From positions 1 to 38,376 of IMG/VR virus record IMGVR_UViG_3300033571_012668: a DNA stretch of 38,376 bases. One strand, 5' to 3'. A program made the translations under genes and the position numbers. Position 1 is the stretch's first letter; the number at the start of each line of letters is the position of its first letter. Positions 3,925 to 23,655 of the stretch are shown one piece after another. The notes under the pieces are model-generated. The model was not told the DNA's origin. It did not search any database and saw only the letters and a list, made by a program, of their open reading frames with translations. Source of the stretch: a virus.

Positions 3925-4536
3925 ATGGAAGAAATGTCAGCGATAATAGTCGCTTTTATCACTGGTGTATTAGGTCCAGTAATAGTGATGACTATAAAAT
4001 ACTTTATAGATAAAAAGTCCAAGAAAAAGGACATGATTGCTGACGCTTGTGAAGTTAGCGGAGCAGTAACGCTAAAGCTAGATGAGATAAAAGAAGAGTA
4101 TGGAGCAGACCGTGTATGGATAGCTCAATTCCACAACGGTGGTCACTTTTATCCTACTGGCAAGTCAATCGCCAAGTTCAGCGTCTTCTATGAGACAGTC
4201 GAAGTAGGCGTTTCTTCAATACAATCTAACCTACAGAACATTCCAGTAAACCTATTTAGTAAGTCCATAAATCACCTATTGAAGGATGATTTGATCCGTA
4301 TACCGGATTTTAAGGACGAGACTCAAGCAACTTACGGACTCAAGTATTTTGCAGAAGACAATGGAACTAAGTCCCAATACCTTTTTTCAATAAGAAGCAT
4401 AGACGGTAAATTCATAGGAGTATTCTCATTGGACTATACAAGAAGAAAGACTAGGCTTACTAACGAAGACATCATTGATTTAGAGATAAGTGCCGGTTCT
4501 CTTGGTGGAGTTCTAATGAATCATTTAACTCGATGA
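3925..4536 (+). CDS. Membrane-anchored GAF-like domain protein
   Basis: 203 residues. An N-terminal membrane segment spans about residues 6-28 (IIVAFITGVLGPVIVMTIKYF), followed by a lysine-rich cytoplasmic boundary (DKKSKKKD). The remaining 165 residues read as a GAF-type sensor fold: WIAQFHNGGHFYPTG in an early strand, then SQYLFSIRSIDGKFIGVFSLDY as the hairpin strands and a last helix. The pattern is typical of GAF domains but no ligand residues can be identified. No output domain follows, so it may bind a host partner or ligand at the inner membrane. It overlaps the next gene by an ATGA junction. Fold assignment is moderate; function unknown. Confidence 0.6.
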   Translation: MEEMSAIIVAFITGVLGPVIVMTIKYFIDKKSKKKDMIADACEVSGAVTLKLDEIKEEYGADRVWIAQFHNGGHFYPTGKSIAKFSVFYETVEVGVSSIQSNLQNIPVNLFSKSINHLLKDDLIRIPDFKDETQATYGLKYFAEDNGTKSQYLFSIRSIDGKFIGVFSLDYTRRKTRLTNEDIIDLEISAGSLGGVLMNHLTR

Positions 4537-4823
4537 AAAGAATAGTAGAAAACTTTAGAGAATTCATTGATCTGGCTAAGATAAACCAAGGACCAGACGG
4601 GTGGAGCATCTATGGTTCTAATCCTAAGAACAATGACCGTGAGATGATCGAAGGCGTCATTGAGATACTCAACAAAGTAAAAGACTTAGATAATAGAAGA
4701 TCGATCGCAGTCGATATGTTAGATAAGTTTAAAGAAGAAGGAGTTAAGGTAGATCACGATTCATTCATGAAATCATGTGGATTCTCCTCTAATAGTCGTC
4801 GTCATCGTCGTCAAACGAGATAG
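4533..4823 (+). CDS. Small helical protein with capsid-targeting-like N-terminus
   Basis: 96 residues. The start overlaps the upstream stop (ATGA), which decides the start site. The N-terminus MKRIVENFREFIDLAK resembles the window's tag. The core (DREMIEGVIEILNKVKDLDNRRSIAVDM, then KFKEEGVKVDHDSFMKSCGF) is a compact helical domain. I recall similar short proteins in other large T4-like phages but have no name for the family. The last 11 residues are basic (SNSRRHRRQTR) and arise from sequence that also codes antisense for a poly-Asp tail of the gene at 4789-5025. Confidence 0.65.
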   Translation: MKRIVENFREFIDLAKINQGPDGWSIYGSNPKNNDREMIEGVIEILNKVKDLDNRRSIAVDMLDKFKEEGVKVDHDSFMKSCGFSSNSRRHRRQTR

Positions 4824-8129: not shown

Positions 8130-9848
8130 TTAAAGCTGACCTGCTCCAGCGGTTTCGCCTCCTTCTTTAGTCTCACTACCGCCTGCTTCTGCTGGTGCTG
8201 CTGCTCCGCCTGCCGCTGCTCCACCTGCCGGTGGCGCTGCTGGTGCGCCTGGTGCTGCTCCTGCTGCTGGTGGCATCTCAACTTCAATGTCTAGTTTCTG
8301 TTCAAACCATTGTTGGTTAGATTCGATTTCACTCTCAGTCAACTTAAGCTCTTTTCTAACTAAGTATTCGGTAGAGAAGAATGGTGTACCGTCATCGTTC
8401 ATGACTCCTTTCTTAGCTTGGAATGCTGCGATTCGTTTAGCTTCGATATCGTTTTGTTTAGCTTCTTCGAAGATGTTATCGTTGTTATAAGTTATCCCGA
8501 TTGCATTGTTAAACTTATAATCATCTCCTAATTCTGGAAAGTCTAAGCACATTTGCAAGTACCAAGGTTTTACTAGCATTTCAGAGAATGCTGATCTTAG
8601 TCTTCTAATGAATTTCTGATATCTGACTTCCTCCCTTGTGATACCTTCTGCGTTTAGGGTAAATGCACCCATACCGCTCTGTCCTTCCCAACGTGAATAA
8701 GGAATCTTGGAGTCCATCTTTAATTTCTTATAGAAGTAATTTAAGAGTTCAGAACCAGAAAGGTTTGGACCAGGGGTCTGTAATGCTTCGATCTTGATCT
8801 GTTGCTGTTGGTCGTTTACTGGCATAACATAGTTCTTATAGAACATGATGTTCGGTTTACCGTCAACGTTTAGCTCACCAGTATCTCCATTAAAGTAGAT
8901 GTCTTCTTTAAATAAGTTTAGGAATTCACGAACGTCTTCTTGTCCTTTTTGAAAGCTTTTACTTCCGATTGGAACTGTTGTAGTTAACCTGATTGGAGCG
9001 TTCATAACGTGCCAAATTACCTTACTGTGTTCGATTATTCTTAAAAGGTTAAACGATCTGATCAACCTTTCAACAAAACTAACTCGTTTTGTTCTAAAAT
9101 GGTTGGCGTAAGATATGTAGATGACTTGTGAGTCGTTTAGGATTCTAGTTGCACCGTTTGATGGATCGTATTGTACCCACTGTAAGAAAAGCTTTCCTTT
9201 AGGATCCTTTTGTAACTGTGGAGCAATACTAGCTGGGTCGATCTCTTTGAAACCTATGATCTCTTTAGGTTTATCTAAATTATCGTAAAGAACTTCAAAA
9301 GAAAGGTGACCTTCTACTAGGAACTGGAATGCGTATTGCCATGCAGCTATCCCTTCTCCGAATCCCCAAGCAGTATAAATCTTTTCAAAGTTGTCGTTGT
9401 ATTTGTCAAGTACTGCCTTTTGATAATGTAGTCTCTCTTCCTTGTTGTCTCCCCTATAAAGAAGCTTACCTGTCATGTCCTTTGCGTATGCGAATCTACT
9501 CTCTTCATCATAGACTATCATGTCATCGACGATTGTTTCTAGAATGAATTCGATTTCGCCATTGGACGCAACGTCCCTTAGTCTTTCTCTTTTAACGACA
9601 TAATCTAATTGAAAGAAGGCAATGGCCTTTGTTCTTAGTTGGGAAGTAGTATCAGCTATCGCCATTGAGAACTTCATGAGCTCGTCGTTAGCGCTTAGCC
9701 TTGTGCTTCTTGCTTGTAGCTGGCCTTCGATAAAACCAATTGCTTGTGAGTTTCTAAGAAGAAGGTCCTCATGTCGAGTACCGAACTTACTTAGGCCGGC
9801 TAGTGTTCCTCCAACCTTTCCTTTTGATGTGTCTAAAAATCCAGCCAT
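8130..9848 (-). CDS. 20: Portal vertex protein, gp20-like
   Basis: 572 residues (T4 gp20 is 524). Segments typical of the T4-type portal family are visible: EFILETIVDDMIVYDEESRF near the N-terminus, the stem region VFERLIRSFNLLRIIEHSKVIW, and the C-terminal part with KLKMDSKIPYSRWEG, GITREEVRYQKFIRRLRS and LVKPWYLQMCLDFPEL. The portal forms the dodecameric ring for DNA packaging and tail joining. The last 37 residues or so are an Ala/Pro/Gly/Glu low-complexity tail that T4 lacks. In T4 the portal gene is followed by prohead core, protease and major capsid genes; here none of these follow, so head genes are dispersed. A gp4-like gene lies two genes upstream. Confidence 0.9.
   Translation of the reverse strand: MAGFLDTSKGKVGGTLAGLSKFGTRHEDLLLRNSQAIGFIEGQLQARSTRLSANDELMKFSMAIADTTSQLRTKAIAFFQLDYVVKRERLRDVASNGEIEFILETIVDDMIVYDEESRFAYAKDMTGKLLYRGDNKEERLHYQKAVLDKYNDNFEKIYTAWGFGEGIAAWQYAFQFLVEGHLSFEVLYDNLDKPKEIIGFKEIDPASIAPQLQKDPKGKLFLQWVQYDPSNGATRILNDSQVIYISYANHFRTKRVSFVERLIRSFNLLRIIEHSKVIWHVMNAPIRLTTTVPIGSKSFQKGQEDVREFLNLFKEDIYFNGDTGELNVDGKPNIMFYKNYVMPVNDQQQQIKIEALQTPGPNLSGSELLNYFYKKLKMDSKIPYSRWEGQSGMGAFTLNAEGITREEVRYQKFIRRLRSAFSEMLVKPWYLQMCLDFPELGDDYKFNNAIGITYNNDNIFEEAKQNDIEAKRIAAFQAKKGVMNDDGTPFFSTEYLVRKELKLTESEIESNQQWFEQKLDIEVEMPPAAGAAPGAPAAPPAGGAAAGGAAAPAEAGGSETKEGGETAGAGQL
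8140..8278 (-). repeat. Ala/Gly/Pro low-complexity coding tract in portal C-terminus
   Basis: A GCT/GGT/CCT-rich stretch encodes runs of Ala, Pro and Gly (PAAGAAPGAPAAPPAGGAAA) at the end of the portal. Simple-codon repeats of this kind also end the protein encoded at 5865-6131. It may be a flexible tail facing the capsid interior. Confidence 0.7.
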
Positions 9849-11357: not shown

Positions 11358-12490
11358 TAGATTAAGATAAGATCTAGCTCTGACTCTGAAAAATACTTGT
11401 TTATCAGCTTATTAAAGACTTCTAGATTGGTCTTAGGGTCGATTGTAGAAAGAACTGAGTATGCGTCGTTCACGTCCTTTATGAGCTTTATCTTAATTCT
11501 ATGTTGAGAATATGTTTTTATGAGGTCGGAGATAAACTTTGACCAGAGAAAAACTGAATATCCCTTCTTTATCAACTCAATTGACTGTCTCTTACCTGCG
11601 ATATCATTGTCGAAAAAGACCTTTGCGTTCTTTTTGGTAAGAAGGTTTTCAAGAAGAAGGTTGCTTTTACTGACACCGGTAGTCGCTATACAGTTAAATA
11701 TGAATAGAGAATCGAGCTGGCCTTCTGTGATTATGACGTCCTTTGTGAAGTCGACATTAAGAACGTTAAAATAGTTATTTAGGGAATCTACTTCTTGCAT
11801 GACTTCTTGACTCATGCCCTTCACAAGTCCATTCTTACTGAACTCAGCATAGTTCTTAATTAGATACTTGGGTCCTTCGACCTCGCCTATTCTACGAATG
11901 GCAAAACCTAAAACTCTATCTGACTTATAGTCAATGTTGAAGAGATAGACCTTATCGTCCCTAGAATCGAAGTAAGCAATCTTGTCAAAGTCAGGAAGAA
12001 CGTCTAGGTTTCTAGAAATTATGAAGTCATGTACTTGACTGCCTTCCTCAGCCTCTGAACAAGGCTTTAATGAGAACCTTACTGCTAACTCTTTTAATTT
12101 CAATAGGCTGCTTGCCGCATTAAGTATGATGAACTTTTCAAAGAGCGATCCTTTCTTCTTTGAGCGAGAAGCTAGCTCAAACTTTGGTTTTTCTTGAGCC
12201 AATGAAGGCACACCTAACGAATACTTGGTGGCGAACGATGAGACAAAACCCGTAAGATCAGTCTTGACTCCACAGCCATCGTTGTAACACTTATAGGTAT
12301 GAGTTGTGATGTAGAAGTTTCCTCTTTTCTTTTTTGGATCCTTCTTAGAGTCTCCACAATAGGGACACGCAAAGTTCAACTTATCTCCTGAATCGAAGAT
12401 CTGTTGCTTTAGATTTGAACCTGGAAACTTTTTCTTAAGCAGGTCCTTAACGAAGTCCTGTATGCTGTAACTCACTAAAAAATCAAACAT
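11357..12490 (-). CDS. 61: DnaG-type DNA primase, gp61-like
   Basis: 377 residues. A zinc-binding domain has C42-x2-C45 (CPYCGDSKKDP) and C68/C73 (YKCYNDGCG). A TOPRIM catalytic domain follows, with E256 in EGQLDSL and D294-x-D296 (FFDNDIAG). T4 gp61 (342 residues) has the same order and makes RNA primers at the replication fork with the gp41 helicase. The gene overlaps the polymerase fragment gene (12483-13910) by 8 bases, so both are translated from one message. A late-promoter-like element for the downstream head gene overlaps its 3' end. The missing companions (clamp, loader, helicase) must lie elsewhere. Confidence 0.88.
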   Translation of the reverse strand: MFDFLVSYSIQDFVKDLLKKKFPGSNLKQQIFDSGDKLNFACPYCGDSKKDPKKKRGNFYITTHTYKCYNDGCGVKTDLTGFVSSFATKYSLGVPSLAQEKPKFELASRSKKKGSLFEKFIILNAASSLLKLKELAVRFSLKPCSEAEEGSQVHDFIISRNLDVLPDFDKIAYFDSRDDKVYLFNIDYKSDRVLGFAIRRIGEVEGPKYLIKNYAEFSKNGLVKGMSQEVMQEVDSLNNYFNVLNVDFTKDVIITEGQLDSLFIFNCIATTGVSKSNLLLENLLTKKNAKVFFDNDIAGKRQSIELIKKGYSVFLWSKFISDLIKTYSQHRIKIKLIKDVNDAYSVLSTIDPKTNLEVFNKLINKYFSESELDLILI

Positions 12491-13910
12491 TTTCTTCGAT
12501 TAGCTCGACAACTGCTTCTCCCTTTTCTTTCTTTTTAGTAAGTCTCTTTATGTACTTTTCCAATTCCATCTTAGGAACTATGACTGTGTCTAACCCATAT
12601 TTAGTCAAGACCGAAAGATATTCTGGGAAATCAGTTTCTTCTACCTCTGCTTCTGGATTTCCAATTATTCTCCAAAACTTTTCGGGAACCTCTTCGTGTT
12701 CTAATGAGTCTTGGTTTACAACATATAAAGGATAAAGGTTAGCTTCGTCTTCTGCTTTCTTTCCCTTAGCCTTCACCATCTCGACCGCTCTTTTTAGGTT
12801 TTGATCTAAGGAGCTAATCTTCATTGCAGTCAACAGACGATTCATCGGTTCGACGATTAAGGTAAAGAACTGCGAATCGAAATCCATTCCTGGTGCAATC
12901 TCGTTAGGAAAGTTTCCTGGAACGTATGCAAAGACATCAAACTCATGTTCGTTTTGAGAACAGTAATAAAACTTGATCTTATCCTTCTCTCTAATCTTGG
13001 GATAACGATTGATCAGTCCAGTCTTTATCAATAGGTGATTGTAATACACTGAAGCTCTAGGATAGATCGATATTCCTTTCTTTACTTCGCATCGTGCCTC
13101 ACTAACCACGTACTTTTCATAAACCCTAACGTTATAGTTGAAGGCTAGTTCGTCTGTACTTAAGAGCTTAGCCTCATCCTTAAGTGCTTGAAGTCTTGGG
13201 ATCACGTCATTTTCTAAATTAAGGCGCTTACCTCGCTCTAAGATAAATTCAGTAAGAGCAGTTAACTTCTTTCTTGCCCATATGGGATAGGAACCTTTAA
13301 TGGGCTCAAGTCCCTTAATCACTAGATACCTTTTTTCTTTCGGAATGGTCTCATAGCTAGGATTGGGCTCGTATGCTATCTTAATCGCATAGTTTTTCTT
13401 TTTCAACCATATCCCATGTTCAGAAAGGTTTTCAAGCTTAAACTTAAGACGATTATTTGTGTTGAACAGCTTTCCATACTTATCAAAACACTGATCAAAG
13501 TAATTAGACAAGCGGTGACGGTCGATGTTTATACAAAGGTTCATTACTTCATCCTTAGTAAAGTCTGCACCTTGTATCGATTCAATGGCCGAGTCAAACT
13601 GCACGTAAATGGAATCAGTATCAGTATAAATCGCAGCTTCGTCTTCTACTTTAGCTATCGTGTATTGAGATATTCCTAAAAGTTCATGAAGCTCTGTGTC
13701 TAGATGCCACTTCTCTAAAAAGTAATGATTTACTGCTTTGATCGAAAACTTGATAAGGTCTTGACCTTGCAAAGTAATTGACTGGGCTATGTTTGGGTTA
13801 TAAAAATAGAACCATTTGTTTCCGAAGGCTCCATATATCGAGTTAATGAGGAGCTTTATAGCGTTCTGTTTTAGATCTAGCTTCTTTATTTTTTTTTCTA
13901 CGTCTTCCAT
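12483..13910 (-). CDS. 43: Family B DNA polymerase, C-terminal part (split polymerase)
   Basis: 475 residues. The N-terminus contains motif B almost at once: K19-LLINS-IYG (residues 19-27), then the palm motif C Y95-T-D97-T-D99-S (YTDTDS). Thumb-domain and C-terminal sequence follow. The exonuclease domain and polymerase motif A are absent. T4 gp43 is 898 residues and puts motif B near residue 560, so this protein starts about 20 residues before it. Upstream is a 117-base divergent promoter region and then an unrelated plus-strand gene, so the N-terminal half is encoded elsewhere and the two parts must associate. A similar split between motifs A and B is known in the Methanothermobacter PolB. 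The gene heads the minus-strand block and overlaps the primase gene. Confidence 0.88.
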   Translation of the reverse strand: MEDVEKKIKKLDLKQNAIKLLINSIYGAFGNKWFYFYNPNIAQSITLQGQDLIKFSIKAVNHYFLEKWHLDTELHELLGISQYTIAKVEDEAAIYTDTDSIYVQFDSAIESIQGADFTKDEVMNLCINIDRHRLSNYFDQCFDKYGKLFNTNNRLKFKLENLSEHGIWLKKKNYAIKIAYEPNPSYETIPKEKRYLVIKGLEPIKGSYPIWARKKLTALTEFILERGKRLNLENDVIPRLQALKDEAKLLSTDELAFNYNVRVYEKYVVSEARCEVKKGISIYPRASVYYNHLLIKTGLINRYPKIREKDKIKFYYCSQNEHEFDVFAYVPGNFPNEIAPGMDFDSQFFTLIVEPMNRLLTAMKISSLDQNLKRAVEMVKAKGKKAEDEANLYPLYVVNQDSLEHEEVPEKFWRIIGNPEAEVEETDFPEYLSVLTKYGLDTVIVPKMELEKYIKRLTKKKEKGEAVVELIEENV

Positions 13911-15448: not shown

Positions 15449-17359
15449 ATGAAAAAACTGTTAATTTTATTAACATTGGTGTGCGCCGTTTTTGTCGGCT
15501 ACTCACAAACGGGACCTCCCGCCCCAAGCAACGGGGTATGGGCCATTATTGATACCAACTATCAAGTAGGTCCGACTTCAACTGGGCATACTCAAGCTCG
15601 ACTTACTCTTAAAAATACTACCTTAACTAAATACGCAGGTGTTCAGTTTAGAGTTTTTTACGATAACGTTGCTTTTACTAATGCCACAGTTGCTCTATTG
15701 GGATCCAATGCAAACTTGGATTTTCAATACTCTACAAACACGGCAAACGGTTACATCACAATGACTCTAGTCTATACTGGAGCCAGTGCTACCTATACTT
15801 TAGTAGATGGCGAAAGGTTTGAAATAGACTTTACGCATGCAGTTGAAGCGACTTTTAATAACTTACCTTCAATTTCTAACTTGACTTGGACTGGTGCACA
15901 GGCCTATTCTCCATATGCTGCCAAGCAGGACGGTATTGATACTACCTTAAACCTTCATAACTATGGAGGACAGTTCGAGTTTCAACAACTATCCTTTCAT
16001 GGAACATTCGTTAACACGACTGGAACACCGGCAAAGAATCTTAGTTTAGCCTTAGAAAGAAAGCCATATAACAGTAACACTTGGGCACAACACTCAACTT
16101 ACTTGACTGACATAAATGGTGACTTTAACTTTACTGTAAACTTAGACACTTCTTATTGGGACGTTCGTTTGGCAATCCAAGGAGACTCGATGGATGTAGG
16201 TAACGTAATCACCGCGACCGATGCACAATTGATAAACCAATGGGTGTTAGGAATAGCTACTCCTTCAGGATTCGACTTCTTTACTGCAGACGTTAACAAT
16301 TCAAACAACGTCACCATATCTGATGTATGGGGAGTATTCGGTAGAGTTTCTGGTAGATTCTCACAATGGCCGAATAACGTTAAAGACATCAAGTTCTTTA
16401 CGCCTGCTGAATACACAGCAATCAACGGCTCAGCTAACAACTTGACTGCTACTTATGCTGGGGTAACTAACTGGTACCACAACATCCTAGCAGGTCAACC
16501 TGATTCTATCGTAAGATACGTATTGGTTCCTGGTGATGCCAACGGTACTGGTTACAACATGGCTCGCCAAATCCCTATTGAGATCCTAATTGATCCTACT
16601 CCTGGAATAGAGTCACAAGTATATCACGTGATCGATCATTCAGTAGAATATGACTTTCCTACTGAGAGCATTGAAGTAAACGTTCCTAGATTATCAGTAG
16701 ACGCAGGAAGTCTAGTAAACCTACCGGTAAAAGTTTTCACAAACGGTGTAGACCTAGCTTCATTACAGTTTGGTCTTATCTACGATCCTGAAGTATTAGA
16801 GTTTAAGGGAATCTTCTCTAACTCTAACGCGATGAAGTGGATAACTTACGTAAACCCAAATGACGGTCAAGTCGATTGGGGAGGATATGATCCTACTAAC
16901 GTAGAGAATCCTATCAAGGACGGTGAAGAAGTAGTAAACCTACAGTTTCTAGCGCTTCAACCACAAGACGAATGGTTAGAAAGCCCGCTCTATACTACTA
17001 GAAAATTCGCAGGAGACGTTTCATCTAGCGACCTTAGTCTAACTCCGACTAACGGAATACTTCAAGTATTGAAGGCAGTAGGCGCTGGAGTGATTGATGA
17101 TAACTCAATCGAATTGTTTCCTAATCCATTTAATGAAGAGGTGACTATGACCTTTAAGGTGAATGCGATGACTGATGCTACACTAGCGGTATACGACATA
17201 TATGGAAAAAAAATAGTAACTGTCCTTTCAGGCCCTCTACCTGAGGGACAGTTTACATACACAACTAATCTTGGAAAACTAGCAGATGGAATCTATGTTG
17301 TGACTTTAACGTCAGACAACGAGACTCCGCTCTTTGAAAAGATAGTAAAACAAAAATAA
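15449..17359 (+). CDS. Exported cohesin/dockerin-like protein with T9SS C-terminal sorting domain
   Basis: 636 residues. Signal peptide 1-19 (cut after YSQ, Bacteroidota style). Residues about 28-150 resemble a cohesin-like beta sandwich (GVQFRVFYDNVAFTN). Residues 180-245 are a carboxypeptidase-regulatory-like or SD-type module. Residues 246-303 are dockerin-like, with two EF-hand-type segments (MDVGNVITATDAQLINQWVL and ADVNNSNNVTISDVWGVFGR). A second cohesin-like domain lies at 407-540 (NLPVKVFTNGVDLASLQFGL, YDPEVLEF). Residues 551-636 are a clear type A T9SS sorting domain (LFPNPFNEEV, VYDIYGKKI, ADGIYVVTL). Such domains direct export through the outer membrane and attachment to the surface. 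It heads the envelope operon. A phage gene with this domain implies a T9SS-bearing host. Domain calls: T9SS and dockerin strong, cohesin moderate. Confidence 0.85.
   Translation: MKKLLILLTLVCAVFVGYSQTGPPAPSNGVWAIIDTNYQVGPTSTGHTQARLTLKNTTLTKYAGVQFRVFYDNVAFTNATVALLGSNANLDFQYSTNTANGYITMTLVYTGASATYTLVDGERFEIDFTHAVEATFNNLPSISNLTWTGAQAYSPYAAKQDGIDTTLNLHNYGGQFEFQQLSFHGTFVNTTGTPAKNLSLALERKPYNSNTWAQHSTYLTDINGDFNFTVNLDTSYWDVRLAIQGDSMDVGNVITATDAQLINQWVLGIATPSGFDFFTADVNNSNNVTISDVWGVFGRVSGRFSQWPNNVKDIKFFTPAEYTAINGSANNLTATYAGVTNWYHNILAGQPDSIVRYVLVPGDANGTGYNMARQIPIEILIDPTPGIESQVYHVIDHSVEYDFPTESIEVNVPRLSVDAGSLVNLPVKVFTNGVDLASLQFGLIYDPEVLEFKGIFSNSNAMKWITYVNPNDGQVDWGGYDPTNVENPIKDGEEVVNLQFLALQPQDEWLESPLYTTRKFAGDVSSSDLSLTPTNGILQVLKAVGAGVIDDNSIELFPNPFNEEVTMTFKVNAMTDATLAVYDIYGKKIVTVLSGPLPEGQFTYTTNLGKLADGIYVVTLTSDNETPLFEKIVKQK
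17218..17253 (+). other. Strong hairpin inside the T9SS domain coding sequence
   Basis: Arms 17218-17225 and 17246-17253 (AACTGTCC/GGACAGTT) and 17228-17232 and 17240-17244 (TCAGG/CCTGA) pair to give 13 bp, with a 2 by 1 internal loop and a 7-base loop. No T tract follows, so it is not a normal terminator. It could pause transcription, process the message or be chance codon choice. Confidence 0.55.
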
Positions 17360-17371
17360 CCCTATAAAACA

Positions 17372-17707
17372 ATGTCAGAGGAAACACAAGAAACAAACGA
17401 TGGAACTTGGACAGGTCTTAAAAAGACTATCATTGGAACTCTTACAACAGTAATTGCAGGCGGAGGCGTCTGGGTAAGTACAATGATATTTGGTGGAGGA
17501 GACGAAGAGCCTAAGGAGGAGACCAAGACTGAACAGTCTGGTGGACAAGCGCCGGTGATCGTAAACGTTCAACAAAACCAAGAGAACAAGCAAAAGGTTG
17601 AGAACGGTGGAGGAACAGTTGTTCGTGAAAGAATAATTGAGAGACCAGCTCAACAGACTCAGCAACAACCTGAAAAACCAAAGAAGGTTGAAGAAGAGTC
17701 TTGGTAA
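17372..17707 (+). CDS. Small single-pass membrane protein
   Basis: 111 residues. A short acidic N-terminus precedes a hydrophobic segment at about residues 18-42 (IIGTLTTVIAGGGVWVSTMIFGG), followed by a polar Glu/Gln/Pro/Lys-rich tail (residues 45-111) with no predicted fold. It lies 12 bases after the T9SS-protein gene and 18 bases before another membrane protein. The layout of short N-terminus, one membrane span and long charged tail could fit a spanin-like or holin-accessory protein, or a tether for the operon's surface proteins. No homologue recognised. Confidence 0.65.
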   Translation: MSEETQETNDGTWTGLKKTIIGTLTTVIAGGGVWVSTMIFGGGDEEPKEETKTEQSGGQAPVIVNVQQNQENKQKVENGGGTVVRERIIERPAQQTQQQPEKPKKVEEESW

Positions 17708-17725
17708 AAAAAATAAAAACTAAAA

Positions 17726-18106
17726 ATGAAATTAAAGGATTTCTTAAAAGCAGACCCAGATTACGTTAAAGTAGAAGACAAGAATCGCTTCTACTTCATG
17801 TTACAACAAATGCAAGCAAACAGATGGAGAATCACAGCAATCATACTTGGACTGTTCTTCTTTATTATCCTAGGAATCAACGTAGGAGTCTTTACTGAAA
17901 TTAAAGTAAGTCAAGACTGGAAGGAAATGCTTCTTATCTTATTAGGAGCTTTCGTTGGTAACTTGAACAAAGTAGTAGACTATTGGTTCAACTCAGAAGA
18001 CAGAGACAAGATGTTGATTCAAAAGGTTGACGAAGAGGACGGAGTCTCTCTTTCAAACGTTGCTGATCCTAATGCAGCTGACGAAACTAACGAAATGGAA
18101 GGATGA
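17726..18106 (+). CDS. Two-span membrane protein, holin candidate
   Basis: 126 residues. The N-terminus MKLKDFLKADPDY is charged. Two membrane segments are visible: about 35-56 (ITAIILGLFFFIILGINVGVF) and 67-88 (EMLLILLGAFVGNLNKVVDYW), followed by a charged, acidic cytoplasmic tail. Small two-span proteins of this form, with a conserved LGAF/LGAL plus V-x-x-W-F in the second span, are widespread in phages and often annotated as holins. The gene overlaps the CsgG-like gene by an ATGA junction. A lysis role is inference; it could instead support the envelope operon. Confidence 0.6.
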   Translation: MKLKDFLKADPDYVKVEDKNRFYFMLQQMQANRWRITAIILGLFFFIILGINVGVFTEIKVSQDWKEMLLILLGAFVGNLNKVVDYWFNSEDRDKMLIQKVDEEDGVSLSNVADPNAADETNEMEG

Positions 18107-18846
18107 AAAAACTAGCGATCATTACATTCGCACTGATTCTATTTAGTTGTAAAACTCTACAGGCCCAGCCTCCACAGAACGGTGGAGGCATAGGCTCTGT
18201 CAAGACAGAACAGTACCAAGCGGATTTCGAAAAGAAACAAGACATTGACGTCGTGGCTAATTACACAGACACGATACAGGTTCCTATTCAGTTATTGAAG
18301 ATTGGAATCAACTCTGAGCTTTATGAGATGTATCCGGAGCTCAAAGACAAAAGAGTAGGTCTGGGTGTGACTAACATTGTGATCGAATACTTAGAATACA
18401 CCAATCGCTTCATATTTACTGAAGAGAAAGAAGACATCAAACAACGAATGATAGCCCAAGACAAGGCATCAGATAAGGGAATATCTTCAAACGAAATAAA
18501 CGTAAAAGGTAACGTTGTCCTTGCTAAATACTTTGTTTACATTGAGGTTTATGACTTCTCAGTTTCTGAAGACGAAGTCGTAAAAGTAAACGGACAACAG
18601 ACGATAACTCAAACGACTAGATTAGGATTACAGATAAAGTTCGTAGATGCTGAGACCAGCCAAGTAATAGTAGGTTCAGGGCTAGGTGAAGCAGTTACGG
18701 TAAAGACCGAATCGATATTGGGAGACATCTCAGACGAAGTAAAATTCAATCAATCTACTATAGGAATAAGCACAAAAAAGGCTCTTGAGACAGCATCGTC
18801 TAGAGTGGTCACAAGATTAATAAGCAAAGGTGTATTTAAGAATTGA
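18103..18846 (+). CDS. CsgG-like outer-membrane lipoprotein
   Basis: 247 residues. A signal peptide with a lipobox-like end (ILFSCKT, Cys at residue 16) marks a lipoprotein. The body carries the features of the CsgG/curli-secretion family: VTNIVIEYLEYTNRFIFTEE, VLAKYFVYIEVYDFS, then the paired strands TTRLGLQIKFVDAETSQVIV with SGLGEA, and a final helix ALETASSRVVTRLI. CsgG forms a nonameric channel in the outer membrane that exports curli subunits. It overlaps genes on both sides (ATGA at 18103; a TTG start overlapping its stop at 18843). Its likely client or partner is the barrel-ended protein immediately downstream. CsgG family is fairly sure; curli export is not shown. Confidence 0.78.
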   Translation: MKKLAIITFALILFSCKTLQAQPPQNGGGIGSVKTEQYQADFEKKQDIDVVANYTDTIQVPIQLLKIGINSELYEMYPELKDKRVGLGVTNIVIEYLEYTNRFIFTEEKEDIKQRMIAQDKASDKGISSNEINVKGNVVLAKYFVYIEVYDFSVSEDEVVKVNGQQTITQTTRLGLQIKFVDAETSQVIVGSGLGEAVTVKTESILGDISDEVKFNQSTIGISTKKALETASSRVVTRLISKGVFKN

Positions 18847-20498
18847 AACTAAAACTACTCATATCGTTTGCTCTGCTAATAGTAGGGACGTTCAGTCTTA
18901 CTGCACAAAGCTATAGTTATAGCTATGCTGATCCCTGTACTGGGAATACACAAACGATAACGGTTCCAGTAAACGGCGAAGTAACTGTCGGTTACTATGG
19001 ATTCGTAGAAACCTTTTCATACAACGAATTTAATAACGGAACATTTGATACGTGGACAAACACGGTATTTTCACAATTTGAAGGTTCTCCATGTGCAGAG
19101 ATAGTTGGACTAAGCAGCACAGTCAGCATAGCACAAGATGCTGCGTTCAACGTCATGGGAATCTTAAACTCGTTAACTGCTTTATCTGACTTTGCGGGTG
19201 CATCTGGCGCTACTGACATGTTGACTGGAAGTATAGGCGCTGCTTCTAATTCTTCGGGTTCTTCCGAAGATGAAGAAGAAAATAACGAAGGTAATGGAAG
19301 CTCAAATAATCAAACAGGCCAAACCTCTACTGGATCAAATCAGGTCGGCTCAGGAACCAGCAACGGTGAAGGAACTGGCGGATCAACTGGAGAAAGTCCT
19401 GCTGGAAACGGAGTGGCAACTTCAACTCAAACTGGATCAAATGAAACAGGAGGTACATCGACTGGCCAGTCTGTAAATCAAGGAGGAAGTGCTGAAAATT
19501 CAAATAATCAAACAGCTAATGGAAATTCTAATCAAGGTAACGAGTCTAATGGTTCTGGGAACACTGGTGGTAATGGGAATGGTGGGACTGGTAATGGAAC
19601 TAGCGAAACATCGCAAGAAGGACAAGAATCAGGGGTAAATAATAACAACAGCGAAAATAATCAATCCCAAAATGAAAGTGGAAATAATGGCTCCAATAGC
19701 GGCGGCAGTGGTTCTTCTAATCCCGGTTCTTCTGAAGGTGGTGGACAGCCTGGAGGAGAAGAAAGCACAACGGAAGAAGCAGCAGAAGGAGGAGGACAAA
19801 CCAACATAACTGCTGGTGCAAACAAGACTATAAACGCAAACAAAGAGGGCGGAGGTGCTCCAACCGTGATTGCGTCTAGCGATTTTGTCGGCTTCAACTT
19901 TAAAAACTCTGAGGTGACTACTGGTCTTAAACTCACAGGAGGTTATCATTCCTTAAGGTGGGACGGATTAAGAGCTAAGGGAGTACTAGTAGATTATGTC
20001 TCTGCGATAAAGGGCCCTAATGCAACTACTTATTATGCTTGGGTAAAACCTAAGTCTATCTCGATGCTCTCACTGACTGGGACTTTCGGTTTTGAGGGTA
20101 GAGGATCGATGTATGGAACAATTGCAGGTGGACAGATGCTAATGTTCCCGAAGGTTAAAAACCTAAAGGCCGTCTATATGGGAACAATCTCATACGGCCA
20201 GGTATACAAGACAGAGTTCTTAGGTAGCGCATTGATCGCAGGAGGAATGTACGACCTAAAGTTATTAAAAAGAATAGACGTTAAGATAATGGGTCTCTTT
20301 GTGTATGTCCCATATATTAGCTATTACAACGATTTGGTGTTAAAGTCTCCATATGTAGTGATTCCTAGTTTAGGAACCAACATTTCGATAACGAAGAGAT
20401 TTAAGTTTAACATCAATGCTGGTGGGGCATGGGCGATAAAGGAGAACGCTTTAAATTATACAATAACATGTGGAACAAGATTATTAGTTGGGCAATAG
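18843..20498 (+). CDS. Exported protein with long Ser/Gly/Asn linker and C-terminal beta-barrel-like domain
   Basis: 551 residues, TTG start overlapping the CsgG-like stop. Signal peptide 1-21 (SLTAQS). Residues about 22-138 are a small folded domain with Cys pair (DPCTGN, SPCAEI). Residues about 140-330 are a disordered Gly/Ser/Asn/Thr/Glu linker with an acidic start. Residues 345-551 have alternating amphipathic strands (GFNFKNSEVTTGLKLTGGYH, SMLSLTGTFGFEGRGSMYG, VYMGTISYGQVYKTEF) ending in TCGTRLLVGQ, typical of an outer-membrane barrel. Genes coupled to CsgG are often accessory or substrate proteins. It could be a surface-exposed partner of the CsgG-like channel. Its stop overlaps the start of the lectin gene. 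Confidence 0.7.
   Translation: MKLKLLISFALLIVGTFSLTAQSYSYSYADPCTGNTQTITVPVNGEVTVGYYGFVETFSYNEFNNGTFDTWTNTVFSQFEGSPCAEIVGLSSTVSIAQDAAFNVMGILNSLTALSDFAGASGATDMLTGSIGAASNSSGSSEDEEENNEGNGSSNNQTGQTSTGSNQVGSGTSNGEGTGGSTGESPAGNGVATSTQTGSNETGGTSTGQSVNQGGSAENSNNQTANGNSNQGNESNGSGNTGGNGNGGTGNGTSETSQEGQESGVNNNNSENNQSQNESGNNGSNSGGSGSSNPGSSEGGGQPGGEESTTEEAAEGGGQTNITAGANKTINANKEGGGAPTVIASSDFVGFNFKNSEVTTGLKLTGGYHSLRWDGLRAKGVLVDYVSAIKGPNATTYYAWVKPKSISMLSLTGTFGFEGRGSMYGTIAGGQMLMFPKVKNLKAVYMGTISYGQVYKTEFLGSALIAGGMYDLKLLKRIDVKIMGLFVYVPYISYYNDLVLKSPYVVIPSLGTNISITKRFKFNINAGGAWAIKENALNYTITCGTRLLVGQ
19260..19800 (+). repeat. Low-complexity Gly/Ser/Asn/Thr coding tract
   Basis: About 180 codons are biased to Gly, Ser, Asn, Thr, Gln and Glu, with imperfect repeats of SN-x-QTG and GNGGTGNG type. 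The tract lacks predicted structure and links the N-terminal domain to the C-terminal barrel-like domain. Long reading frames in other phases across it are compositional artefacts. Confidence 0.8.
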
Positions 20499-22177
20499 TG
20501 CTGTTAGCGGCAATTGACTTGAATGCACAAAGTGTGATTAGCCCTAGCGCAACATCATTCCCACAAAGCACATCGAATCAAGTAGTCAGCGGGTTCTCTG
20601 TGACTGGATTCAATTCAACTTCGACCCTACTAATAACGATAGGTCTAGTAAACCCTCCTTCTGGAACAACACTACGCCTAAACACGACAACAGGGGCAAC
20701 CGCGAGTACAGGTTATAACTTGACTTCTAACTTTACTAGGATAAGCTTTACTGGAACTCAAGCGAATGTTAATAACGTATTAGCATCATTAAGACTAAAT
20801 ACTGGTGCAACTCCAGGAAACGTTTACATTGCTGTTACTGCTACTGAGAATCCAGTTGGGTATTTTTATCTACCATCAAACGGTCACTTTTATAGACCGA
20901 TTTCGACTGGAGCATTCTATAATGCAGCTAAATCAGCGGCTGCTGCAACCACATTTAAAGGACAGTCAGGTTATCTAGTAACCATTACTTCAGCAGATGA
21001 GGATGCTTTCATATACAACAACGTACCTCAGTCACAAATTTGGTTTGCGCTATCCGATGCTGCACAAGAAGGATATTGGAGAATAGATGCAGGTCCAGAA
21101 GCAGGAACTTTGATTAAAACTCAAAATGGACAATTTGCTGGAAATATAGCTGGTCAATATAACAATTGGGCCGGAGGAGAACCTAATAACTCTGGAGGTG
21201 AGCATTATGCAGTAACCAAATGGAACGGGTCTCAATGGAACGATTTACCTAATGGTTTTTCATGTCCTTATGTAATTGAATACGGTACATGGACAGACCC
21301 AGCCAACCAAACGTTTACTGATTTCTTTACTGGGTTCGTGACTCATCAAATTTCTTGTACTGCAGCAAACGCACCTGCTGCACCTACTGGAGTCAATGGA
21401 AGTCGAATGTTGGCTGGAACGGTTACTCTGTCGGCTACTCCACCAGCCGGTTCTACTGTAGACTGGTATGCAAACTCAACTGGAGGAAACGTTTTGTCAG
21501 GAGGTCTAGGTGCCACTACATATACTACGCCAAGCATATCAAACACGACGACTTATTTTGCTCAATCTAGGAATTCAACAAGTGGTTGTGTTAGTTCCAC
21601 TAGGACTGCAGTAGTAGCAACGGTCAACTACCCGATTCCTTTTACTTATTCTGGTAACATTTACAATTCACAAGCAGTCGGAGTCCCAAACATACAAGTA
21701 AAGCTTTTCTATAAACTAAAGTCGGCAAGCACATACACTCTATTTCAAACGTATACGACAAACATACTGGGTGCCTTCTCAATAACTACTACCTTTGATA
21801 TTGCGTTGTATGATTTCCAAGTGACGGTAGATGCTCTCAGCGTATCTAATCCTATCGTTTCAGACGCAAACTTTTTCACAAACAAGGTTTTAAACCAAAG
21901 CTTCATTCCTATCGATTACTATAGAATGGATGTAAACGGTAATTCTAACTTGACTGTGACTGACATTCTTTTGATTTACAAGAAGATGAATGGCTTTTCT
22001 TGGACAAATGGAATGCCGACTTATAGAATATTTACTCAACCCCAATGGACTGCGATCCAATCGACTGGAGGAAACCCAGCGCTAGTTTTTCCAGGATCGC
22101 AAAGCATTACTTTGACGAATCCCACAGCCGGTGGATCGTCTTCTTTATACATAATAAAAACAGGACACGCTAACTAA
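20468..22177 (+). CDS. Exported C-type lectin-like protein with Ig-like and dockerin-like domains
   Basis: 569 residues from the ATG at 20468, chosen over the upstream in-frame start at 20429 because it begins a proper signal peptide (residues 1-21, cut near LNAQ). Residues about 22-125 form a beta domain. Residues about 131-263 are a C-type lectin fold with E238-P-N240 (GGEPNN, the mannose-type calcium motif) and W257-N-D259. Residues about 303-388 are an Ig-like domain typical of secreted Bacteroidota proteins. Residues 390-455 match the SD-type module of the 15449 protein, and residues 455-510 match its dockerin-like part (YRMDVNGNSNLTVTDILLIY). It ends SSLYIIKTGHAN, where the 15449 protein has IVRYVLVPGDAN, so it stops before the cohesin and T9SS parts. 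Likely a surface sugar-binding partner of that protein. Confidence 0.82.
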   Translation: MWNKIISWAIVLLAAIDLNAQSVISPSATSFPQSTSNQVVSGFSVTGFNSTSTLLITIGLVNPPSGTTLRLNTTTGATASTGYNLTSNFTRISFTGTQANVNNVLASLRLNTGATPGNVYIAVTATENPVGYFYLPSNGHFYRPISTGAFYNAAKSAAAATTFKGQSGYLVTITSADEDAFIYNNVPQSQIWFALSDAAQEGYWRIDAGPEAGTLIKTQNGQFAGNIAGQYNNWAGGEPNNSGGEHYAVTKWNGSQWNDLPNGFSCPYVIEYGTWTDPANQTFTDFFTGFVTHQISCTAANAPAAPTGVNGSRMLAGTVTLSATPPAGSTVDWYANSTGGNVLSGGLGATTYTTPSISNTTTYFAQSRNSTSGCVSSTRTAVVATVNYPIPFTYSGNIYNSQAVGVPNIQVKLFYKLKSASTYTLFQTYTTNILGAFSITTTFDIALYDFQVTVDALSVSNPIVSDANFFTNKVLNQSFIPIDYYRMDVNGNSNLTVTDILLIYKKMNGFSWTNGMPTYRIFTQPQWTAIQSTGGNPALVFPGSQSITLTNPTAGGSSSLYIIKTGHAN

Positions 22178-22767
22178 TGAAAAATTTACTATTAACCTTA
22201 TCAATCTTATTTTCAATTAATGTTTGGTCGCAAAAGACCTTACGCGATTCGATCTATATCAAATCAGACATATTTGAAATAGTCTATTCTGAAAAGCTAC
22301 AACAACCGAAATTCATTAGGTACACAGTACAGTGTCCAAACGGTGATGCCTCTAGAAAAGGAATGGACTTTTATGTTTGTGATTCAATCCTTACTTCAGA
22401 TAACCTAGACTACGTAAACAACCAATACGACAAGGGTCACCTAGCGCCGGCTGCTGACTTTAACTGTAATAAGGAGATGCTGTATAAGACCTTTAGCTAT
22501 CTAAACTGTTCCCTCCAACAGGAAAACCTAAATCGAACTACTTGGAGACTTCTTGAAGCTAGAGAAAGAGAGCTGGCAAAGACTCATGGAAAAGTGGTCG
22601 TTGAGATAAGATGCGTATTTTCTAAAAGTTCGATTGTTCTCCCAAGCGGAGCGACCATTCCGGACGGATATTATAAGACCATAAAATACGGAAAGTCAAC
22701 AGAGAAGTATTACTTTAAAAACGAGAAACCTCTTTCTACTGATTACACAAAATATAAGATAAAATGA
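22177..22767 (+). CDS. Secreted DNA/RNA non-specific endonuclease
   Basis: 196 residues. Signal peptide 1-18 (SILFSINVWSQ). The catalytic motif Y84-D-K-G-H88-L-A-P (YDKGHLAPAADF) is the D-R-G-H-type signature of the His-Me finger NUC1 endonuclease family; a further Asn region (YLNCSLQQENLNRTTW, residues 109-124) fits the metal-ligand Asn. The family cleaves DNA and RNA without sequence preference and needs a divalent metal. Its start overlaps the stop of the lectin gene (TAATGA) and its stop overlaps the next gene. In the periplasm or outside the cell it could degrade nucleic acid released at lysis or incoming DNA from competing phages. Role is inference. Confidence 0.85.
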   Translation: MKNLLLTLSILFSINVWSQKTLRDSIYIKSDIFEIVYSEKLQQPKFIRYTVQCPNGDASRKGMDFYVCDSILTSDNLDYVNNQYDKGHLAPAADFNCNKEMLYKTFSYLNCSLQQENLNRTTWRLLEARERELAKTHGKVVVEIRCVFSKSSIVLPSGATIPDGYYKTIKYGKSTEKYYFKNEKPLSTDYTKYKIK

Positions 22768-23216
22768 GAAAACTAACATTACTTTTTGCAATAATCTTGA
22801 TTATAATAGACATAAATGCTCAAGAATGTGTCTATGTCGATTCAGTATATTCGACTGCAAAGCTTAGAGAGATGGGAAATCGTGACATCAAGTTTGGAAT
22901 AAGACAGATAGTAGAGGACGAACTCTCTGAAAAGTATTGTTTGGGCGAAGGTTCAGATATAGACGTGGAAGTATTCTATTTTGGAATACCTAAACACTCG
23001 ATCCGAATCGTAGGAGTAGAAAAGACTAATCAGATAACACAAGTCGGAGTTAGGTTATATTACAAAGGAGTCAAGTATGAGGGAATCGGAGAATCGGATG
23101 TTGAAGTTAGAGCAGTCATGATAGAACTAGTCGATAACAAGGTTCCATTCGATAAGATGACGGTCTCATCTGCCCTAAAAAAAGCAATACATGAAGCAGT
23201 TACTAGCATGCCTTAG
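22764..23216 (+). CDS. Small exported protein, distantly CsgG-like
   Basis: 150 residues. Signal peptide 1-19 (IIIDINAQ). The mature part begins ECVYVDSVYS and includes IDVEVFYFGIPKHSIRIVGV, TQVGVRLYYKGVKYEGIGES and a C-terminal helix (ALKKAIHEAVTSM). The order of strand, short loop, strand with a GxGxS turn and final helix recalls the CsgG-like protein encoded at 18103, but sequence identity is low. It overlaps the nuclease gene by ATGA and the zincin gene by 26 bases. It may be a periplasmic partner or chaperone for the operon. I would not name a function. Confidence 0.6.
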   Translation: MRKLTLLFAIILIIIDINAQECVYVDSVYSTAKLREMGNRDIKFGIRQIVEDELSEKYCLGEGSDIDVEVFYFGIPKHSIRIVGVEKTNQITQVGVRLYYKGVKYEGIGESDVEVRAVMIELVDNKVPFDKMTVSSALKKAIHEAVTSMP

Positions 23217-23655
23217 TTTACTAATCACACTGACTGTCTCTGCTCAAATAAAGGTGGACGATATCGGTGAGGGTTGGAAAGACAGCGTAAATAGAGCGAT
23301 AGAAAAGATCAAGGAGTCAGACCCTTTTTATCATGTCTTTTTAAACGCAAACTGCAATCACATAAGCTACACGATGGCCAGCTTCTCAACGACTGAGGGC
23401 GATTCGACCATACTCATTTCTACTAGACAGATGAAGGCAGGATACGTAAACGATATCGCCTCTACGTTGGTCCATGAATCTCTACACCTATATTTGAAAA
23501 GGCTGGGTTTGAAACTAACTGAACGTGAAGAAGAACTCATGTGTTATAGGTTTGAACTCATGTTTCTATTTAGGGTGATAGATGTGGAGGCATGGCTAAT
23601 GTCTCACGCAATAACTATGATCAACCACTATTCTATTGAAGATGAGAGGAAATAA
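23191..23655 (+). CDS. Secreted zincin-like protein (HESLH motif)
   Basis: 154 residues, signal peptide 1-18 (LLACLSLLITLTVSAQ). H95-E-S-L-H99 is a zinc-metallopeptidase HExxH motif, followed by acidic residues at 111-115 (EREEEL) that could give a third ligand. The region before it (DSTILISTRQMKAGYVNDIA) resembles the edge strand and helix of small zincins. The fold is truncated relative to classical metallopeptidases, so enzymatic activity is not certain. It is the last gene of the envelope operon. A role in opening the cell wall, processing surface proteins or lysis are all open. Confidence 0.65.
   Translation: MKQLLACLSLLITLTVSAQIKVDDIGEGWKDSVNRAIEKIKESDPFYHVFLNANCNHISYTMASFSTTEGDSTILISTRQMKAGYVNDIASTLVHESLHLYLKRLGLKLTEREEELMCYRFELMFLFRVIDVEAWLMSHAITMINHYSIEDERK

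Follow-up and report, generated by a model that had tools for sequence, protein, structure and literature searches.

The window analysed here, a 38,376-base IMG/VR fragment (IMGVR_UViG_3300033571_012668, positions 1-38,376), carries nine consecutive plus-strand genes (P1 to P9, 15449-23655) whose conservation across relatives supports one envelope operon rather than a chance run of genes. The virus carrying this block is a virus of Bacteroidota bacteria and, judged from its portal sequence, which matches those of T4-type phages, a T4-like myovirus. The strongest functional clue lies outside the window: in relatives, holin-like and endolysin genes adjoin the cassette or lie within it. We hold, at about even confidence, that the cassette acts late, in the egress of large lytic Bacteroidota phages. 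With a widespread, lysis-linked cassette and a cultured carrier, Immuto, the question of how these phages breach the outer membrane becomes testable.

All nine open reading frames (ORFs) were found where the original prediction had placed them, and its description of a single run of overlapping or closely set genes held: neighbours overlap or are separated by no more than 18 bp, the successive spacings from P1 to P9 being +12, +18, -4, -4, -31, -1, -4, and -26 bp when the start of P6 is taken as 20468. The block is flanked by a phoH-like gene upstream and a convergent UvsW-like helicase gene downstream. As also predicted, seven of the nine proteins carry signal peptides and the other two, P2 and P3, are membrane proteins; the catalytic and sorting motifs are intact across the cassette. 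When a crude signal-peptide rule was applied to the relatives, it was satisfied by 37/38, 54/62, 18/18, 41/47, and 38/43 of the P4, P5, P7, P8, and P9 sequences, respectively. P4, P5, and P8 gave no useful family match in Pfam or PHROG.

Rather than occurring singly and unlinked in related phages, the families proved to be linked. Scans of IMG/VR with P4 and P3 returned 58 and 284 loci, respectively, and a profile scan of the same database found at least 576 loci encoding a P4 relative. The same neighbour families surround 38 non-redundant P4 loci, and genes 1-2-(3)-4-5-6-8 stay together in most non-redundant loci in at least six gene orders (1-2-3-4-5-6-(7)-8-9, 1-2-4-3-5-8-6, 1-3-2-4-5-6-8, 9-1-3-2-4-5-6-8, 8-1-2-f7-4-5, and, in Immuto, 7-6-1-1-2-4-5-8). 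That the gene set is kept though its order changes points to a joint function. Immuto is the cultured Flavobacterium phage vB_FspM_immuto (Immutovirus), in which gp12-gp19, mostly annotated as hypothetical, comprise the nuclease, the lectin, the cohesin protein, P2, P4, P5, and P8, with P6 as gp13, P1 as gp14/15, P2 as gp16, P4 as gp17, and P5 as gp18; its cassette has no P3 or P9, its P1 lies in two ORFs, and its endolysin is encoded elsewhere. The original prediction took the combination for no known phage module, and in the published literature we found no description of this cassette.

The genes flanking the cassette vary among loci. In L018 and L022, P4 is 87-88% identical to that of the window while the portals are 26-27% identical over part of their length; in L138 and L091, the portals are 62% and P4 about 68-71% identical to their window counterparts. 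This discordance between P4 and portal identity indicates transfer of the cassette between phage lineages. Among 84,980 species genomes, relatives were present in only three contigs of metagenome-assembled genomes, each phage-like and carrying phage lysis genes, which rules out a lysogenic-conversion or host gene set.

Linkage to lysis genes was evident from the most frequent extra neighbours of the cassette: f6, a peptidoglycan-binding GH19 protein (PHROG endolysin match, 1.1e-70); f11, with a match to an endolysin profile; and f7, a two-transmembrane (two-TM) holin-like protein unrelated to P3 that fills the P3 slot between P2 and P4 in several genomes and adjoins GH19 in others. For 29 non-redundant loci, 2 kb or more of flanking sequence was available on either side; 18 of them had the GH19 endolysin no more than 2 kb from the cassette, with no further gain out to 5 kb, and 27 had P3 or f7. 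The models fixed on this first set were then applied to later-fetched contigs (nine new non-redundant loci), where GH19 lay within 2 kb in 8/9, mostly 19-50 bp away, and P3 or f7 was present in 9/9, giving 36 of 38 loci for both sets combined. Of the same-strand GH19 copies in the first set (n = 17), five were no more than 100 bp from the cassette and two inside it. Among distinct records longer than 100 kb with one full-length GH19, this gene was within about 5.4 kb of P4 in 15/19, against a chance expectation of about 1 in 10, roughly estimated by area alone. Individual arrangements are closer still: GH19 sits between P4 and P5 in L142; L055 has a single-strand run of nuclease-GH19-P8-P1-P2-f7-P4-P5; and in L131, without the remaining cassette, P3 lies directly 3' of, and overlaps, the f11 endolysin-like gene. 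The features of the block in the window are collected in Table 1.

Table 1. Features of the nine-gene block, with positions in the window (AF2, AlphaFold2; T9SS, type IX secretion system; aa, amino acids)
Feature	Position	Strand	Description	Basis
P1	15449..17359	+	636 aa; signal peptide, cohesin domain(s), dockerin-like region, C-terminal T9SS sorting domain	Pfam
P1 cohesin domain	16670..16972	+	Residues 408-508	Pfam
P1 T9SS type A sorting domain	17114..17347	+		PF18962, 45.5 bits, E 3e-13, above cut-off
P2	17372..17707	+	111 aa; short cytoplasmic head, one weakly hydrophobic stretch, ~70-residue Q/P/E-rich tail	
P3	17726..18106	+	126 aa; two-TM holin-like protein	Alignment, 98 loci
P4	18103..18846	+	247 aa; predicted CsgG-fold protein, signal peptide, lipobox in window copy	AF2 and structure comparison
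P5	18843..20498	+	551 aa; signal peptide, small N-terminal domain (two conserved Cys), helix, linker, predicted barrel	AF2
P5 barrel	19863..20492	+	Predicted 12-strand barrel, residues 341-550	AF2 and structure comparison
P6	20468..22177	+	569 aa; signal peptide, C-type lectin domain (EPN, WND), Ig_7, dockerin-like tail	Pfam Lectin_C and Ig_7 above cut-off
P7	22177..22767	+	196 aa; exported DNA/RNA non-specific nuclease (Endonuclease_NS), DKGH active site	PF01223, 4.6e-21
P8	22764..23216	+	150 aa; exported small P4 paralogue	hhalign
P9	23191..23655	+	154 aa; exported HExxH metallopeptidase-like protein	HExxH; weak SprT-like and DUF4344 matches

The CsgG fold of P4 was assigned by fold comparison. 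Its predicted model (mean predicted local distance difference test score, pLDDT, 72.6) matched CsgG (4uv2) at E 1.8e-9 with Foldseek and at Z 12.5 with VIA-align (rmsd 3.7, 165 residues), with LptE, PelC, and FlgT behind at Z 8-10, and its best named match in a viral structure library was an annotated phage CsgG (E 3.8e-8). The sequence route to the same identification was rejected, as hhalign against the CsgG of HTVC008M gave 2.3% and a PDB sequence search was empty; the window P4 also fails the cut-off of the Pfam CsgG model, with which a few divergent relatives give weak matches below cut-off. Of the CsgG-like channel in the original prediction, the fold is retained and the pore is a putative one. 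P4 has 40 invariant columns among 38 sequences, and comparison of its mature part with that of P8 by hhalign gave 96.0% (E 4.7e-9), with shuffled controls at or below 0.7%. P2, which has no Pfam match, ends in an invariant Trp (W111, 26-sequence alignment) and lies immediately upstream of, or overlaps, P4 where the P3 slot is empty; we propose it as the inner-membrane partner of P4.

The barrel-like protein of the original prediction corresponds to P5, whose C-terminus is predicted to form an outer-membrane barrel, joined to the preceding helix through a disordered G/N/S/Q-rich linker of about 220 residues in the AF2 model. The closest structures were the EspP/NalP autotransporter barrels (Z ~23), followed by FapF (Z 18.4), and NanC/KdgM porins were also matched. 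P5 shares with FapF and the type V autotransporters the predicted 12-strand barrel, the N-terminal domain, and the helix; it differs from them in its long linker and in having no sequence similarity. An autotransporter has its passenger on the same chain and its helix inside the barrel; in P5 the linker parts the predicted helix from the barrel, and passenger secretion would be putative. The start codons of P5 in the window and relatives are ATG, TTG, and GTG in 24, 23, and 15 cases, respectively, and a 4-bp overlap of the start with the P4 stop is frequent, which suggests translational coupling between the two genes. Contigs carrying P3 alone yielded no P5 relatives.

At the cell surface, P1 is predicted to be an anchored scaffold. 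Its cohesin (1.9e-11) and Por_Secre_tail (T9SS; 1.3e-10) matches in Pfam are above cut-off, and among its relatives the T9SS domain, as originally predicted, is present in 31/31 and cohesin in 29/31. The C-type lectin P6 was likewise borne out, the EPN and WND motifs being present in 46/55 sequences. A dockerin match falls below cut-off in both window proteins; the tail of P6 resembles the dockerin region of P1, and the two proteins fall into one cluster. P6 lacks the marked conservation of P4: its head differs among relatives (Lectin_C in 19/33, Laminin_G_3 in 5/33), with the tail retained. If true, this would give a conserved example, spanning several genes, of the host T9SS being co-opted by a phage to decorate the cell surface, the lectin head differing between phages. 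Cryophage, a cryoconite phage, also encodes proteins with T9SS sorting domains; these are single variable proteins (endoglucanase, GH39, PA14) and not a conserved multi-gene cassette (PMC7468147). In Immuto (L140, 11598-13422) and L053 (7014-8906), P1 consists of two consecutive ORFs, either a true split or a frameshift. In a divergent branch (L055 and L142), the ORF at the P1 position has no obvious fused sorting domain at its end and is followed by a lipoprotein of about 122 aa (8938-9306 and 8204-8575, respectively), whose C-terminus we read as sorting-domain-like.

Neither P3 nor f7 matched any holin family, and P3 was not found in cultured phages. P3 copies about 70-77% identical are also present in further large viral contigs that lack the cassette (L072, L079, L102, L119, and L130), and some contigs with such cassette-free P3 also have DnaK-like or sigma-factor-like genes. 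In L055, a 267 aa repetitive Ala/Gly/Val-rich protein (3996-4799) is encoded directly 3' of a short P3-like gene. The exported nuclease and the zincin-like protein that had been predicted are P7, with an Endonuclease_NS match and the D[RK]GHxxP motif in 18/18 sequences, and P9, with HExxH in 43/43. P9 is kept or relocated upstream in many relatives and is missing in some.

The steps that we infer for egress would run as follows. P3 (or f7) would act as the holin and permeabilise the inner membrane, and the GH19 and/or LD-type endolysin encoded alongside would cut the peptidoglycan. P2, in the inner membrane with its long periplasmic tail and terminal Trp, may contact the outer-membrane protein P4 and its small paralogue P8, and these three, together with the barrel P5, could bridge and destabilise or perforate the outer membrane, a job done elsewhere by spanins. 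After export by the host T9SS and anchoring at the surface, P1 would hold the swappable lectin P6 via cohesin-dockerin-type contacts, and this coat on surface glycans would keep progeny from being trapped on debris or block other phages. P7 would digest released DNA, and P9 would cut an envelope protein or peptide. That P2, P4, P5, and P8 form an undescribed outer-membrane-opening machine taking the place of spanins in large Bacteroidota phages, that a lectin-swapping coat displayed through the T9SS accompanies it and releases progeny from debris, and that the whole is mobile as one cassette, is put forward tentatively, as a possibility we would sooner doubt than assume.

The likeness to two-component spanins (lambda Rz/Rz1 and T4 PseT.3/PseT.2) lies in a small inner-membrane protein with a periplasmic tail encoded beside, or overlapping, an exported outer-membrane protein near a holin or holin-like gene and an endolysin, P2, the proposed counterpart, having 111 aa and the T4 i-spanin 117 aa. 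An i-spanin has one N-terminal TM and a periplasmic coiled domain; P2 has one weakly hydrophobic stretch. However, P4 is a large protein with a predicted CsgG fold and not a small lipoprotein, a lipobox occurs in a minority of its relatives, the cassette has an extra barrel and surface proteins, and nothing in it matches Rz by sequence. In one survey, phages of Bacteroides and Croceibacter are listed with those for which no spanin was found (PMC6139136), and the Rz-type spanin family PF03245 had no match in 23 of our records, which leaves room for other spanin families.

Several observations weigh against the egress explanation. There is no recognisable endolysin within the 38-kb window, that of Immuto is about 27 kb from the cassette, and in a few other records the endolysin is far away or unlinked. 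GH19 was picked because it is a frequent neighbour, and the related contigs are not independent of each other. Non-lysis accessory genes can adjoin lysis genes, as lambda bor and lom do. Among the proteins themselves, the TM segment of P2 is weak, its hydrophobic stretch falling under the hydropathy threshold; the P4 model is of moderate confidence; the lipobox pattern of P4, found in 14/38 sequences including that of the window, shows that lipidation is not conserved; and the P4 hairpins are not clearly membrane-like: the amphipathic pattern is weak, and one long hairpin (143-182) is predicted without the second return strand, against two transmembrane hairpins per subunit in the nonameric CsgG pore. 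Moreover, P1 has to leave through the T9SS before the cell lyses, and P1 and P6 may therefore serve another purpose. Of the four roles offered in the original prediction (remodelling the host surface, blocking or catching other phages, binding matrix sugars, and helping lysis and spread), the genome context favours the last, and surface remodelling and superinfection blocking may still apply to P1 and P6.

A module for surface remodelling and superinfection exclusion is the main rival, and we rate it as rather unlikely. P1 and P6 would coat the infected cell and mask or occupy receptors, P7 would degrade the DNA of incoming phages within the periplasm, the export channels would be P4 and P5, and the lysis genes would be mere company in a late operon. 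The universal sorting domain of P1, the exported nuclease, and the swapping of lectin heads on a retained tail, as receptor arms races would predict, all fit this explanation, and the T9SS cargo of Cryophage has been proposed to act thus (PMC7468147). However, the best-conserved members are P3, P4, and P2 and not the lectin, P7 is patchy among relatives, and in many genomes the endolysin lies inside the cassette or tens of bp away.

Considering that the predicted folds of P4 and P5 both resemble amyloid secretion channels (CsgG and FapF, respectively), we also weighed adhesion or sibling capture, in which a fibre secreted by P4 and P5 would act together with P1 and P6 to aggregate infected cells with new hosts. 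Pelagiphages and the methylophage Melnitz are known to have CsgGF sets, for which lysis, uptake, and sibling capture have been proposed (PMC9004378, PMC9599517); the pelagiphage sets to which sibling capture was ascribed are full curli sets (PMC9599517), and csgGF of Melnitz has been suggested to act in the timing of lysis (PMC9004378). In these phages, as here, a CsgG-fold outer-membrane protein is encoded by a myovirus and absent from the host. The differences are that HTVC008M has csgF-csgG-csgB (gp14-gp16) with a CsgG that matches the Pfam model at 1.8e-54, whereas P4 is below cut-off, and that the cassette, unlike the curli sets of HTVC008M and Melnitz, has holin-like and endolysin genes, a barrel, T9SS cargo, and a lectin alongside. 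A curli (type VIII secretion) system was rejected, as the curlin repeat PF07012 was absent in 23 records (the Escherichia coli control being positive) and no CsgF or CsgE was found; with autotransporters also the better matches of P5, amyloid-type secretion is improbable. An uptake module, in which P4, P5, and P1/P6 would supply the infected cell with captured polysaccharide or nutrients, is the least probable: cohesin, dockerin-like, and lectin domains are frequent in glycan-using surface systems and the P5 barrel is also NanC/KdgM porin-like, but the cassette has no glycoside hydrolase, SusC/D, or TonB element and is linked instead to cell-wall lytic enzymes.

The original prediction had also placed a single late-like promoter before P1. 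This was not confirmed, as the gap between the phoH-like gene and P1 is just 18 bp and the T4-type late element TATAAATA is not conserved there in relatives; sigma-70-type promoters were rejected as well, their sites being no commoner than in shuffles. In relatives, ATATTTAT(A) occurred within 120 bp upstream of P1 in 17/54 loci, compared with 1.0 in shuffles (for example, L017, L034, L069, and L095); the excess before P8 was smaller (5/47), and P2, P4, and P5 had no such element upstream. Because ATATTTAT precedes P1 and not P2, P4, or P5, a single transcription start ahead of P1 is supported. The exact ATATTTAT element is not in the window. It is a candidate promoter of these phages, in an orientation opposite to that of T4 late TATAAATA.

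Two further observations concern the replication and structural genes of these phages. The DNA polymerase B ORF of the window (12483-13910, minus strand) begins near the catalytic NSxYG motif and its N-terminal half does not adjoin it, so the gene looks split. Several cassette phages, L073 among them, have two tandem T4-type portal paralogues; those in G007 (L031, 136085-139363), G010 (L039, 29233-32440), and G016 (L047, 28635-31826) share about 41-44% identity each with the portal of the window.

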